Source: Dichotomocladium elegans (lineage: Eukaryota > Mucoromycota > Mucoromycetes > Mucorales > Lichtheimiaceae). From it: a DNA stretch of 64,000 bases. The DNA is taken from contig JAIXMN010000015.1 in the NCBI GenBank assembly GCA_025716815.1, positions 496,001 to 560,000 on the forward strand. Reading direction: 5' to 3'. Positions 17,175 to 41,224 of this stretch are shown in pieces. The position numbers were made by a program, and so were the translations under genes. Positions within the stretch are counted from its first letter, which is position 1, and each line of letters opens with the position of its first letter. The notes below the pieces were generated by a model, which saw only the letters and a program-made list of their open reading frames with translations, made no database searches and had not been told where the DNA came from.

Positions 17175-18060
17175 ACAAGTGGTACATTTTCGACAGAGTC
17201 TGTTTCTTCGTGTATTATTATCAATCAATATCTAACCACACGTACCATTGACAACACCATATTGAATGGAGTTCTTTTGATCATGAGGGCTCCAGACGCT
17301 GCCTTCATCTGAAAGTGCGTTGAACTAGAGAATCGCAGTTCAGTCCGTCTATATTTGTGCGTATCTCTCACTATCCTTCATGTGATACCATGGGGCATTG
17401 CGCAAAAAAAAAATCTTGTTGTCTGTTTTCCCGGACACGGTCTGGCTTGGTGCGATAAAACGATCTCCCATTTCAATGTGAATAGCTTTTAGAGAAAACA
17501 CACTTACTTTTCAAGCGAACTCGATATGGGTTGATAAATGAATGGTTCGGGTGAATCCCATAAAAAGTTTTTTCCATTGCACGAATACATTCAAGGGCAA
17601 GGACCGAAAAGGAAAGGCTGACGTTCATTAATCAGCTGAAAACAGCAACTCTTCCTCGTACACTTTAACTCACCTCCGGAGAGTAGTTTGGGTGGTCTGG
17701 CGATAACTAGGACGGAAAATAGGAGGAGGAGCATTGCATCAAGAATAATCCAATCTATCAAGGTGTGCCCCTACGATAAATGAGATCTAACACTAAGATT
17801 ACAAAGAACTCATAGCGTGACAAAGCTCGTTATCGCCTGTTTCGCTGATGACTTGTTCTATAGCCTTTACAATATGGCATCATGTTAGTATCCTGTCTAG
17901 TTCTATTTCTTTATTATATCCACGACCCGACCTAATTTCTCGTAGTTCTATTATAGAGGTAATGATCTTTATCCATATACATATTATAATGATCCGCTTA
18001 TAGAATTATCACCACTTGGATCATAGCTTTGCCCCATTATAACACCTGTAAAAAGTGAGA
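17175..18060. other. Intergenic
   Basis: No gene, RNA or clear repeat is recognised between heme oxygenase and the transposase relic. Confidence 0.4.
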
Positions 18061-18079
18061 GACGAATCCTTCGAAATCG

Positions 18080-18985
18080 CTCAACTTTAATTTCACTGAT
18101 CAGGGTTGCCAGTGTCTCTCGCTTTCCAAGAACCTATTACGATTTATTTTTGCTCTTCACAACCAACCAAAACTGTCCAATAGGATTGAGATTAGGCGAA
18201 TGGGCTAAAAAATAGGCGCATCGATATCCTCAGCATTATGAATAGGTGCATTGTCCATTACCAAATAATGGCCCTTCATATGTTCATACTTGATCATTTC
18301 ATCCATGGTAGTCTTAAGAAAGCTGAGTTGATGTCCAGTTACAGTTCCTCTGCTGGCAGGTAGGGACTGTCCCGCTCTTTTTTTTTTTTGGTTAGTGGTT
18401 GGTGGGAGTCTCAAACTACATTTGGTGATGCCTGATGTCGAAATGGCTCCCAAGTTGATTGTTTGTTTTAGCTCTTGTTTCCGCACAACGTAAACACTGC
18501 ACAAGTACCCTTTCTTCGACCATGTCATGCTGTGCTTCATGTTAGTGTGGAACCCAGATTCATCAAGGAAAAGACAGATATTTCTAAAGTCAATGTCAGT
18601 CGTGTCGTATCGGCACACCCAGCCAAGGCGATCTTGGATATTTGCATCACTATTCCCGCCTACAGGCTGAAACGAAACCTTCTTTAATGACAAGTTGCAT
18701 TCATTTTCCATAAATTGATGGAACGTGGTTTTCGACACTTTAAGACTCCAAATCTGAGGAACAAAAGCTCTAACCGTTGCTCTAGGACAATTGACGGATG
18801 CCCATCAACCCATTCTAAAACAGCACTCTTATGCTCTTCGTTGAGAATAAGTGAACAGCCTCTATCTCAATGTTTCTTAAAAACGCGGCCAGGGACCTTT
18901 TCATACCATGATGCGCATCGTTGAACTGACTGAGGATGGATTCCTAGCTGTTTTGCAGCAGCTGATGGGCTCAAGACCTTCTTAG
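18080..18985 (-). pseudogene. Decayed Tc1/IS630-like DDE transposase
   Basis: Reading right to left on the minus strand, an N-terminal helix-turn-helix-like part starts near 18985 (MSKKVLSPSAAAKQLGIHPQ) and contains an in-frame stop after VFKKH. A frameshift near 18745 leads into an open stretch (18205-18738) with the catalytic-domain motifs FLDESGFHTNM and YLVMDNAPIHN. Another frameshift or stop near 18205 precedes SPNLNPIGQFWLVVKSK, the equivalent of the conserved SPELNPIEQFW block. In that block the usual Glu positions are changed, so the copy is dead. It belongs to the Tc1/mariner superfamily with a DDE_3-type endonuclease, common in Mucorales. Terminal inverted repeats were not located. 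Confidence 0.75.
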
Positions 18986-18989
18986 ACAT

Positions 18990-20190
18990 CATTTTAAAAA
19001 AAAAATCCCGAACTTATCTTTGTCTGTGCACACTGTATAGCCGCGCTTAAAGTCTGCTTCTTTCATCCGACTCCTTTCGCTTGGGGATATGCCTAACGAC
19101 AAAGTCAAGGTTACCACCGCAAGATAGATTACGCAGATGCCCTGTGTGAGAACAAACGGATTGAAGAGAGCGCGTTCCTCATCAACGACATAGTTCAGGA
19201 GAGCCACATTCATCGACGACATGGCCTTGCCCATCTCTTGTAAAAAAAGTCGCTTGTCCGTTTCAGAATGTAAAATGGGTATAGAGATGAAAATCTTTCT
19301 GTGCGATATTTGCTTTAGTATCATGTGTAAAGATACCCGACTTCAATTTTGGAAACGCTGGGTGCAAGACGATACCTTATACTTTATTCTCCAAAATACT
19401 AAAATTTCGTACACGAACGCGCTCTGTCATGCCTTCTGCACGCTTTTGGTTTGAACATCTATTGAAACATCAATATACTAGAAAATTTTGTCTACTTAGC
19501 CTACGGTAGACTTCCAAAGCTCTACTACTACGAGTAAGATTGCTGGTTCGATAGACAAAAACAGCTATTATCTGAACAGTTAAGAATAGGATAACGTACC
19601 TAACCTCTACCCTATGATATCCGAAAAGGATCACGATCATCCAATCTGGATGACTACAACGACTACCGGTAGTCAGTTTGCCGGTGGTATTTTGGCCTGA
19701 CAGAGCTCGACGGTAAATCGAATGCTGACTGTAGTCTCTCAATTCGAGACATGCGCAGCAAAAAGCACAGACTTACTCATGCAAGATACACTAAGTAAAT
19801 ATACGGTGTGAGAACAGACGGTTGCGGGTGCTTTTAAGAGATGAGTTTGTGACATCTTATTTCCGTGTACGCAGAGAATTTTTGGCAGAAGCGACTTGAT
19901 TTCGGGAAATGATGTATATACATAATGCTTCACAAGGCACGTATCAAGAAAAAATCAGTGAAAGCATCTATGGGTAATTATGAAGGTACAATCGCATTTT
20001 CATTCACATATCCTCGACTAGCTATTATAACTGAAGGTATCTGTAATGCGATCTTGTATATAACCCTTCACACAAGGCCACCATAGCATTCGATCGATAT
20101 GCAGCTCTGTGGATACAGAACAAGTTACCTGGCTCTGAGCCCATCAGATGGTCGCGCATTAGCCGTTAAAATCTTTTTTACAGTTAGGAC
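18990..20190. other. Stretch without a supported gene
   Basis: A minus-strand frame at 18989-19324 includes a hydrophobic run (LTQGICVIYLAVVTLTLSLGI) but has no recognisable family. The rest shows nothing. It lies exactly where the missing C-terminal half of the neighbouring SPRY gene would be expected. Confidence 0.3.
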
Positions 20191-30808: not shown

Positions 30809-30978
30809 AAAGAGCGTGATGTGGGGAATGACAAATGACACTGTTATTATTTAATACATACAAATGGGCCGGCCGATATGCATATGCATACACAAGATTA
30901 CAACAGAAACATGGGTCTATTTTCCATCAAAGTCATACCCTGCCAGTTCTGAAGTCGCAGAATCGCAAAAATATATGT

Positions 30979-32122
30979 CTATGATGTTGGCTTTTGAAAT
31001 TTAGCCTGTACAAAGATGCGGTCGACATTAAGCTCAAGCCTTCGATTACTCGTCTCGCGGTACACATATTCGTTTCTAATCGTCTTGAAACCAGCGGCTT
31101 CGAAACGAGTTGCCAAATCCTCGACTGAGAAAAAGTAACTCATTGTACCTGGGGGCATGAGGGAAATCATCAATATCGGGCAAGCCTCATCCACTTCCAA
31201 ACGAGGAATACGCAACAACCATTACCATCCTGTCGCACATAAAGGTTCTCGTCGAGCTTCTTGTCCGATGCAGTGCTGAACTTAATTTGAGCCTCATCAT
31301 AGAGGCCATAATCTCTGAAGAGGACATATCCTCCAGGCTTGATGACGTTGTATATATTTTTTATCGCCATCTCCATCTTTTCGGGGGGAATTGCAGAGAA
31401 GACAAAGAGCGCAGAGACGAGGTCAAGGCTCTCAGCCGGCACATTGTCAGTGAGCGAATCGGCTGTCAGGTCGCATACGAATGCTTTGCACCGTGATTCA
31501 TCGTATTGCTCATTGCTCTATAGAGCGGGCATTAAGAAAAGGAAAGAGAGAATTGCAATAGGGCGCTATTTCAGCCTTGTTACCTTGACCATGTCCACTG
31601 CCCGTTTTGAGAAATCGCATGCATAAATAAACAAGTTTGGATTATCTGCCAAAGCAGGAAACACAAAGTTGCCGACGCCGCAACCCACCTCGAGACAAGA
31701 CAGCTGCTGACCGGGAGGAGAGCCTATTTTCTTTAGACACAAGCTGCACGCTAAAGCGAGGCATTACTCTATCATTGTGCGTACCTTGTTGTGCTCATCG
31801 CGGTTATATGCTAATTCCTCAAACTCTCGATCTGTCCAATGACGATCTAAATCATGGGGCCATTGAGTTTATAGCGCTTTCCTTTTTCCGCATCCGGCCG
31901 ACGTTGATCCAATGTACCTTTAAAAAACTTTGTTGTGTTGCGCTTATAAAACAGATCCCAATTTTTGGCTGCTTCCTTTTTGTATTTGTTGACCCAGAAT
32001 GGAGGTACTTCTTTTTTGTCTTTCGCGATGGCTTCTTGAGCACGCTGGATATGGCTATCGAGACGCTGTGGATCCATATTGACACGTGCGCCGTCAATAC
32101 GGGCCTTGGGTACTTCAGTCAT
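30979..32122 (-). CDS. tRNA N3-methylcytidine methyltransferase, METTL6/Trm141 type
   Basis: SAM-dependent methyltransferase that makes m3C32 in tRNA(Ser) in METTL6 relatives. Five exons close in frame: 32122-31918, 31846-31785, 31730-31584, 31517-31226 and 31148-30979, about 291 residues. Family blocks in order are [19 protein letters not shown], the SAM-binding [74 protein letters not shown] and NEYVYRET. These match METTL6 more closely than METTL2/8. It starts 137 bases from PRP18 on the opposite strand. Confidence 0.92.
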
Positions 32123-38353: not shown

Positions 38354-39140
38354 GCATGCCCTTCCCCCATCCCATCTGTACATATCCTGTTTCCCAAAAT
38401 GCAAGTAGCTCCCTAGTAGTTCTGAGGTCGCAGGAGCACAAAAATAGACGTCGAGTATTACCCATGAATCTTTACGCGTGGTGACAAAGCGAACGTCGCA
38501 TGCACGGCGACAAGAAGTCGTATAAAGTGTATAAAGTTGTCGTATCAATAGATAAAGAGATTTCGCGTCGATGAATTGCTACTCATTAACTTACACTCGA
38601 AGGATGAGAGGTGCGGAAGGTGCGTCCGGGACCCCCTTCTTCCATGACAAAAGGAGAGTTGACGTTAGAGTATAATAAAACAAGCGGTCATACCGGATGA
38701 GAACATGCAGTAGATACAACGACATATGCATAATTTCTTTGGGATAGACCTCTTTATGATGATCAACCATGACAATAAGAAAACACGAAAGCTGACAACA
38801 CCTCCTTGATACTGTACCTCTCTGTTCGTGATGTCAAAGTAGGTCCATTCCAAGCCTTCTTGGTTGTCCACCTAAACGAAACCAGACGGGCACCAAGTCG
38901 GATCGGTCCTTTCTTTATTCGCGCGTATTCTATTTTTGCGATTGATGGACTTATGAAAGCAAGCATACAACCTTTGCCTTCTTCCTTTATCTTTCACGGC
39001 CCACACACGGCTTTTATCTTTTTACATATCCTACCGCTCTAACAACTCACAGAATCCAGCGAAAAAGCCAACTACAAGATATTAAAACTCGTACGGTAAG
39101 GCTTCTGATATCATATTTGGTCCCAAAGATTATGTTATAT
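38351..39140. other. Unassigned stretch beside the Fanzor relic
   Basis: Minus-strand coding-like pieces occur (NQEGLEWTYFDITNREVQYQ near 38805-38865; a short piece near 38590-38645) with plausible donors, but no family or consistent gene model emerges. They may be remains of a gene interrupted by the neighbouring insertion. Confidence 0.25.
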
Positions 39141-39299
39141 CCCGCAACAGAGGAAGACATGGAGCAGCCTGTCAACACTATCAGGACGAGGGGTATAAAT
39201 CTCGCCCGGCACAGCCTTCGGCCCACCTGACCGCATACTGACGGTCAAAAGGTCCGTGGATGGCATCCTCTGAAACCCGCCGCTACCACCAACCGCTGA

Positions 39300-41145
39300 T
39301 GGACTTGGGTGTCTGTTGCCCATAGGACAACAAGGCGCGCGAATTTCTTTTCTGAGGTGTGGCTGTCCATGCTCGACAAGGGGATTTGCGTTGGAAGCGA
39401 TAGGCGAACGCTGGTCCGCGAGTTTTTGGACGAATATGTCGAGGCCACCCAATACCGAGGACCGGTATCCAAGATTCTCAGCAATGCTCTGCCAACGAAA
39501 GCAAGAAAATGTTTGTTTCATACTGCAACTATAGCAACATGCGATCTGGCCAGTACCTTCGACGCGTGGTCAACGCTATTCTAAAACTTCGAGAGCGGAA
39601 GGCGGCGAGGAGACGAGCGCTGAACACACTCGCCATTCCACAAGGTTCAAGCTCGCCATTGCACGCCGAGGTGTCCAGAGGGAAGACATCGCCGCATAGC
39701 TAGCATTCCTTAAAGAAGCATACGATCAGATCCGGCCGGTCTTGGATGCATACCCTCCAGAGTACTAGGTCGAGAAAAGAAGCTTTTATGACGACGCTAA
39801 AGCGCACTCCTCCAACCGTCTTTGAGTTTTCCTGGAACTTGCTCATGCTATCCAACGTAACCGCTCCTGGACCACTTGACATATGCAGATCGCACACGAC
39901 GATCCTCGTGCGACGCATCTGACGAAGGTTAAGGAACCACGTTAGTCAGAAGTCGGCTCTCTGGGGAGAAGTCGTTAACCTAGGCTCCCCTTCATTCCGA
40001 TCCCAAGAAGGTGGCATGATTTTGAGGCCCATGACACGATCCACACTGACGGAGTGGGCGTTACCGTCTCCAAGAGATTGAACGGCTGACGACCATCGTA
40101 TGGAGCGAGACCAGCTATGCCAGCACGCCAACAGCGCGGGAGCGCCAGGACATCTCCGGTAGATGTGTCACCATCGACACTTGAGAGGAGAAAACCTTCT
40201 CTTCTGTGTCTTCGAGAATCTCAGGTACCTGTCAGAAGTTCCGATCCACCAAATCGCAGTAGGATAAGATCCGCAAGAATAACAGCTATCACCAAATTAC
40301 TGGAGCAGCTCAAGGATACGAATCCTGAAGCCGCTCGTGCCGAAAAACGTCTTGCTGCTGTTCAAGCACATGCCTTGGACAATGCTGACTCTAAACCACT
40401 TCCTGCTTGCTCGATTCCAAGTGCCACCTGTTCTCGAGAACTACTATGCGCATACAGCCACCCATCATCCAAATCTGCAACCTCTGTTCGGCAAGCTCCG
40501 CCTCTCGGCATACTTCAACAAGCAATGAGCCGACGATAAATAACTTGATTGTGAAGTTTGTGCTGAATGCTGTATTCGCAATGGGTCATGGGTCGGCCCC
40601 GAACGCGAGATATCACGCGCCAATCCGCGGTGTGGGTTTCCGGTATCTTCTCAAGCGGTGGCGAGAGCCGTTTCGGCGTGTACTTGATCGATGAGTTCAA
40701 GGCCAGCAAATGTTGCGCTGCAAGCAAGAACGAGAGCCTTTGTATGTTCAGGATGGTGCCGAATCCACGACCTTATTGATGAGCCGAGAATCCCAACGTC
40801 ATTTGCCATGGCCTGCTACGTTATGAAGGTCTGTTCGGTGGAGGGGTTCGAAATAGTAAAACCCAACATTTCTTTCTTCTCTGTAGATCACAACCTGTAC
40901 AGCAGGCATGGCAAAGGACGTTCCACATCAGTTTTGGAACAGGGATATGGCAGCTTGCCTGAACATGCGCCATATTCTGAAGGGATTTCGCATAGCTGGC
41001 TTGGGTGCCAGAAAGGTTTCGGCGAGCACCTGTTGGAAACTGTCAGGTGCCTACCACGAACATCTAGATCGCCTGACCTCGAGGAACGAAGGGTGCGGCC
41101 GCGGAGGCCAAGAGGGGCAGGGACAACGCTGCCCACCAGGATAAC
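39300..41145 (+). pseudogene. Decayed Fanzor (eukaryotic TnpB-like nuclease)
   Basis: Pieces of one protein are spread over all three plus-strand frames in the correct order. In N- to C-order: a helical region near 39420-39700; a TDGVGVTVSKRL-like block near 40050; VTIDT at about 40167-40181 followed, after a frameshift, by ERRKPSLLCLRE (RuvC-I, family pattern DPG then K and LLC); a helical linker (ITAITKLLEQLKD); GVGFRYLLKRW near 40630; LIDEFKASKCC near 40684 (RuvC-II Glu plus first zinc-ribbon Cys pair); and WNRDMAACLNMRHILKGFR near 40935-40990 (RuvC-III Asp). This set is characteristic of TnpB/Fanzor RuvC nucleases, known in eukaryotes including Mucoromycota. Stops and frameshifts are many, so no intact product is made. 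The 3' end lies about 80 bases from the alpha/beta hydrolase stop. Element ends were not found. Confidence 0.75.
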
Positions 41146-41224
41146 GAATAGCTACCTTTCTTTACCCATCCATGTGACAACATTTTGTATTTTAATGCGG
41201 ACTTTATTTGTGAAGCATTTTCCT

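Follow-up and report, generated by a model that had tools for sequence, protein, structure and literature searches.

The window, which is the whole stretch of 64,000 nucleotides analysed here (positions 496,001 to 560,000 of contig JAIXMN010000015.1 of Dichotomocladium elegans), contains a decayed, right-truncated mobile element that extends from 38385 to about 41209. All of its features lie on the plus strand. Only the left element end is visible. It is preceded by the sequence CATA at 38381..38384, the TA of which is the presumed target duplication, and CATA is also located 5' of all eight other copies of the same subfamily (the L035 subfamily, named after one copy) that were read at their left end. 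The left end and left arm (38385..39158) were identified by their matches to the left ends of copies L035 and L036, with 77.9% identity to L035 over window positions 38379-38520 and 79.4% identity to L036 over 38388-38520. A tblastn search (E up to 1) that used four pieces of transposase reading frames found no transposase remnant in the left arm, and its only matches in the window were at 18196-19822.

The Fanzor1 pseudogene occupies 39159..41121 and corresponds to residues 1-703 of the 706-residue protein of the relative L008 in the frame-aware alignment. About 80 coding bases present in related copies are gone at an internal deletion junction (39333..39345). The RuvC-I region (40160..40200) reads VTIDT followed by a stop and a frameshift, at the place where the aspartate region of intact copies reads VTVDPGRRDLLFC. 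RuvC-II (LIDEFKAS) and the first zinc-finger pair were found at 40680..40730, with one cysteine lost (CCAAS versus CCPAC). A former intron lies at 40822..40890, between CHGLLR and the second cysteine pair, at the intron position of related copies; six of these carry an intron of 57-69 nt with a GT donor and an AG acceptor at this site, whereas the GT of the donor is gone in the relic. The RuvC-III region WNRDMAACLNM was located at 40930..40970 from the reading frames and the frame-aware alignment. The letters D, E and D of the catalytic residues are kept, DPG is lost, and stops and frameshifts break the frame. Downstream, a conserved 3' non-coding stretch (41142..41209) showed 86-90% identity to three related copies over 55-58 bases, 85% identity to L034 and 83% to L022, and it ends before the right end of the element. 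Judged from the end of the matches and a comparison by eye, the relic breaks off near 41209, short of the right-end stretch that is present in L022 and partly in L034.

The first-pass annotation had described 39300..41145 as the relic of a Fanzor, on the basis of motif-like strings scattered over three frames. All of these strings were present in the order given, in three forward frames: GRCVTIDT and LERRKPSLLC at about 40145-40200, GVGFRYLLKRW at about 40630, LIDEFKASKCC at about 40685 and WNRDMAACLNM at about 40935. VTIDT does hold the RuvC-I aspartate, but ERRKPSLLC, which had been assigned to the same block, turned out to be a wrong-frame translation of nucleotides encoding LLFCV... in intact copies. 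A Fanzor remnant is present in the segment, but the element and its coding remnant both begin upstream of it and the element also ends beyond it.

A frame-aware search of the kind proposed in that annotation was run against the spliced L008 protein from the same genome. The alignment comprised 626 residues, 399 of them identical, with 11 in-frame stops, 18 frameshifts and 71 deleted residues. It scored 1597, whereas five shuffled versions reached 35, 41, 48, 35 and 39 and the reverse complement 38. Differences from L008 at codon positions 1, 2 and 3 amounted to 114/619, 99/621 and 202/613, respectively, and the excess at third positions indicates that a large part of the divergence dates from a time when selection still acted on the protein. 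When 39100-41200 was searched as DNA against its own genome (39.4 Mb in 122 contigs), at least 71 matching stretches were found, itself included (the best 40 of 136 candidates were scored), several of which are pieces of one copy. The stretches other than the relic itself were 64-92% identical to it, and among the matches listed eight places besides the relic had E values below 1e-190. The annotation had also expected HMM support, of which the Pfam scan gave little: PF07282 did not match any of the six open frames of the relic, which gave only weak matches to unrelated families, and two intact spliced tails reached 20.1 and 14.0 bits against a cut-off of 26.3. The cut-off was reached in L001, a more distant copy. 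The profile support is weak, and the sequences of the relatives, which align with the relic and match two solved Fanzor1 proteins, support its identification as a Fanzor.

At least 21 of at least 79 matching stretches (best 69 of 839 candidates scored) had a first exon free of stops for about 600 residues or more, and 19 of the 21 belong to a second, high-copy subfamily. In L008 and L011 the reading frame runs uninterrupted for 648-649 residues. Splicing was tried on seven copies, four of which gave full-length proteins of 706 (L008), 709 (L039), 709 (L040) and 702 (L041) residues; the other three could not be spliced to full length, with a stop just after the splice in L011, a broken frame in L007 and a donor reading AT, not GT, in L038. 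The prediction that live relatives exist, and that a genome search would find intact copies, was borne out at the level of the sequence. Intact copies carry VTxDPG, L(I/V)DE(F/Y)KTS, the zinc finger and LWNRD, so that the D-E-D triad is complete, and in the spliced copies a C4 zinc finger lies between RuvC-II and RuvC-III (CCPxC and CHGLLRCxNQNC). Protein identity is 99.7% between L039 and L040 and 56% between L008 and L039. Among solved structures, the first exon of L011 matched 9cf0 (E 1.4e-112) and 8gkh (E 1.6e-41), and that of L040, from the second subfamily, matched the same entries with E values of 1.2e-119 and 1.6e-43. These matches covered almost the full length. L011 had four PDB matches at E up to 1, two to Fanzor1 and two weak and unrelated, and Fanzor1 was the only kind of Fanzor matched. 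A large protein set contained 38 related proteins, and the named ones come from Mucorales and other early-diverging fungi. Two of the 38 are models from D. elegans itself (Mucorales, Lichtheimiaceae), and the pieces of one of these were placed on contig C29 at 958630-960086 with 93-98% identity. Judged by this long similarity to characterised Fanzor1 proteins, the intact relatives are assigned to the Fanzor1 family.

Other Fanzor sequences were seen in the same genome. L001-L003, found with PF07282, are more distant Fanzor copies, and a search with the related protein P0026 gave at least 189 matching stretches; taken together, these results suggest that several Fanzor subfamilies coexist. L037 (2861-3746) has the appearance of a chimera: towards its 3' end it shares 82.5% identity with the high-copy subfamily, whereas the 5' part resembles the window (72-78% identity). 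Such a mosaic may point to recombination between subfamilies.

The unit common to L035 and L036 is about 4.2-4.3 kb long; its left part contains DDE_3-like frames and its right part the Fanzor gene. The high-copy subfamily (L038-L041 and others) has a unit of about 3.9 kb, in which the transposase region of L035 and L036 is matched over its N-terminal part only. PF13358 (DDE_3) matched frames of L036 (E 2.6e-5) and L011 (E 8.7e-5), below the curated cut-off and on gene pieces only. All 28 copies for which both ends were placed are flanked by TA on either side (L035, L036, L038-L041, the L008, L009, L010, L013 and L014 copies, sixteen further pairs and L056). Related copies have short terminal repeats, 19 bp by alignment in L035; applied to L038 and L041, this alignment picked up internal repeats instead of the ends and was rejected. 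From the flanking TA and the terminal repeats the elements are classed as Tc1/mariner-type. The right-end pattern matched the genome 338 times with up to two mismatches, and a reversed control matched 0 times. Set against at least 79 Fanzor stretches, this number suggests that end-bearing copies probably outnumber Fanzor-bearing ones, a loose comparison in which pieces, or only the matches listed, were counted.

L038 (2230-2571) and its homologues have an open frame for the N-terminal transposase part only, which is weakly HTH-like (E 0.049) and may encode a binding-only regulator or be a leftover. Further fragments lie in the window. A second relic on the minus strand (18042-19490) contains transposase pieces 59-68% identical to L036, L011 and L008; it adjoins 78 bases that match exon 2 of the Fanzor gene in related copies (77-81%), and the parts are arranged differently from those of intact elements. 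A third fragment of 63 bases (30917-30979) is 81-85% identical to the region at the left end of these elements.

The left flank of the elements is conserved and specific to the subfamily. Positions -4 to -1 are CATA in all nine L035-subfamily copies, among them the relic. In the high-copy set they are TATA in 28 of 29 copies, and the remaining one, L059, has TATA shifted by one base. The search patterns for the left ends excluded the flank itself. The L035-subfamily rows were L035, L036, L129, L131, L132 and L133 (scripted), L130 and L134 (read by eye) and the relic (added by hand), and the high-copy rows were L041-L066 (L041 with a changed pattern), L070, L087 and L088. Among the matches listed, 27 of the 29 high-copy rows adjoin a Fanzor match and L045 and L056 do not. 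On the right, the mirror base after the TA was G in 2 of 12 L035-subfamily copies (L008, L009, L010, L013, L014, L018, L025, L026, L027, L030, L035 and L036) and A in 12 of 19 high-copy copies (L072-L086 and L038-L041, with L040 and L079 read by eye). Since the right mirror base is mixed and the left flank conserved, the preference is one-sided. Fisher tests of left against right gave 2e-4 for the L035 subfamily and, for the high-copy set, 7e-4 with L059 counted as a match (29/29) and 4e-3 with 28/29. Copies missing the end in question (for example L012 on the right and L034 on the left) and L037 were left out of these counts. In the larger set the conservation sets in abruptly, with 1.78 bits at position -4 against 0.56 at -5, and in the smaller set -5 and -6 are biased as well (1.41 bits, 7 rows).

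Other copies with a similar left end have TATA at the exact place in 15 of 23 rows (20 fetched, L126 dropped for lack of a pattern match, and L067, L068, L069 and L071 added), and four of the remaining eight rows represent one duplicated site. This group was considered as a Fanzor-free control and rejected as mixed. The left ends L121 (C33:946777), L123 (C36:846305), L124 (C39:608396) and L128 (C121:11159) have the same flank, which indicates that the element was duplicated along with the surrounding host DNA; each lies about 4.6-6.0 kb from a contig end, and the block is possibly subtelomeric. Uninserted sites were also compared. L045 is nested inside the transposase leader of another element, and among uninserted homologues of its site the closest (L125/L137), L015 and L066/L056 have TATA while L035/L036 have CTCTAC. 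As TATA occurs in three of these four kinds of homologue, it was probably host sequence before the insertion. A search via the left flank for the empty site of L041 gave no second match in the genome, and L054 was rejected as an empty-site case with a homologous stretch too diverged to decide.

These flanks can be read in more than one way. The near-complete conservation, and the L035/L036 homologue of the L045 site without TATA, would fit if CATA and TATA belonged to the end of the element and not to host DNA. We regard this as improbable, since TATA is present at the insertion point in the other uninserted homologues, conservation sets in sharply at -4 in the larger set, some other copies deviate (L121 with TGTA, and L069), and a TA stands 3' of the right end in all 28 copies placed at both ends. 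Alternatively, the flank could be a preference of a mariner-type transposase whose unlike ends are oriented on a non-palindromic target, unrelated to Fanzor. In our estimate this stands at even odds. The other copies with a similar left end mostly have TATA, L045 and L056 have it with no Fanzor match within several kb among the matches listed, and the ends differ between the two subfamilies too. On the other hand, the former group is not cleanly Fanzor-free (at least L068, L069 and L112 adjoin Fanzor matches), the flanks are compatible with published Fanzor1 TAMs, and the Spu-1 elements of Spizellomyces punctatus have the same conserved CA. A tentative reading, which we consider possible and do not favour outright, is that the TAM has changed between two sister Fanzor1 subfamilies of the same genome, from CATA to TATA or back. 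In such a TA-targeting DDE transposon, an insertion would then be kept only if two further bases made up the full TAM of the Fanzor it carries, the sites would be a fossil record of the TAM, and the guide of each live copy would target its own empty site. At the sequence level, the flank pattern offers a testable lead on the TAM of two related nucleases.

Two further alternatives concern the relic itself. Chance motif-like strings, or fragments of another family, might be suspected from the weak and unrelated Pfam matches of the separate open frames, but the alignment score, the genome matches and the Fanzor1 matches of the relatives contradict this, and we give it practically no weight. It is also very unlikely that the relic is a 'ghost' element with a dead protein that still serves as a source of guide RNA, as Spu-1 in S. 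punctatus. Copies bearing ends are many (338 right-end matches, in the loose comparison above), and ghost guide RNAs work with SpuFz1 according to the portion of PMC10432273 available; the relic, however, ends short of the right-end segment that would be needed for the scaffold and to locate a guide. With its frame broken and this end gone, it should make neither the protein nor a guide RNA. The first-pass annotation had expected a conserved 3' omega-RNA region. A stretch of 55-68 bases, 83-90% identical to a few copies, is indeed there, but folding and Rfam gave it no support: Rfam returned nothing for the relic, L038 or L035, and single-strand folds of four right ends (that of L037 was wrong-stranded and is disregarded) showed AT-rich sequence with no common RNA structure.

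Taken together, the observations are best explained, in our view with high confidence, by a defunct transposon of Tc1/mariner type that once carried Fanzor1 and whose intact relatives most likely act like other Fanzor1s. The relic would have been inserted at the TA within CATA, would have lacked or lost the transposase, and would then have decayed through stops, frameshifts, deletions and the loss of its right end. In intact relatives, we infer that the protein, spliced from two exons, would bind an RNA transcribed across the right end, with flanking host DNA as the 3' tail of this guide RNA. Fanzor would cut DNA matching the guide tail beside the left-flank motif (CATA or TATA), which would act as the TAM. 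If the TA is counted within the TAM, each empty site would read the TAM followed by the same flank that is used as guide. The predicted target is therefore the site of the element itself in its unoccupied state, and cutting there may favour retention or spread of the element.

The relic itself is an ordinary data point in a known family. The relatives outweigh it, as a high-copy family with full-length coding copies that apparently do without the cyclophilin-binding insertion of PpFz1. Its natural sets of insertion sites predict the TAMs of two related nucleases ahead of bench work, and the role of a Fanzor for its transposon would become directly testable in D. elegans. A search of open-licence literature (titles and the openings of abstracts) found nothing on D. 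elegans elements or on a TAM switch between sister subfamilies, and Dichotomocladium does not appear in the part of the species table of PMC3627910 that was available.

Among solved structures, the best match of the intact relatives is PpFz1, the Fanzor1 of Parasitella parasitica (PDB 9cf0-9cf3), which has its RuvC and zinc-finger motifs in the same order. Its cyclophilin-binding RuvC insertion (FRI, about 100 residues) appears to be absent from the relatives, since the alignment skips from residue 986 to 1096 of the PpFz1 chain while the query (L011) advances only from 501 to 510. In the accessible sections of PMC11423790, the TAM of PpFz1 is ATN, which is compatible with both CATA and TATA flanks. 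GtFz1 is given the TAM TTAA in PMC10432273 and in a later passage of PMC11423790, as far as the text of each was available, and one sentence of the latter swaps the order of GtFz1 and SpuFz1. The excerpt of PMC10711439 describes a DPG signature and an alternative-Glu signature for Fanzors. Fanzor2 and IS607-type elements belong to the same nuclease superfamily, whereas the solved Fanzor matches of the relatives are to Fanzor1 only.

The closest parallels to the whole element are found in S. punctatus and in the Mariner elements of Bao and Jurka. SpuFz1 (8gkh) is a homologous protein, and Spu-1 occurs in many copies with inverted repeats, as in D. elegans, with partial and ghost copies also known (PMC10432273, in part). 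The same excerpt gives CATA as the TAM of SpuFz1 and reports a conserved CA 5' of the 5' repeat of Spu-1 elements; D. elegans has in addition a sister subfamily with TATA instead. According to that excerpt no transposase was found between the Spu-1 repeats, whereas some D. elegans copies have DDE_3-like frames. Mariner elements that carry Fanzor1, with TA duplications and terminal repeats and in some cases without a transposase, were described by Bao and Jurka in 2013 (PMC3627910). The elements described here share with them the TA duplication, the terminal repeats and Fanzor1, with a putative transposase or without one; in the available part of that paper, however, the mariner cases come from viral and other hosts, and the elements of its Mucorales species are of MuDr type.
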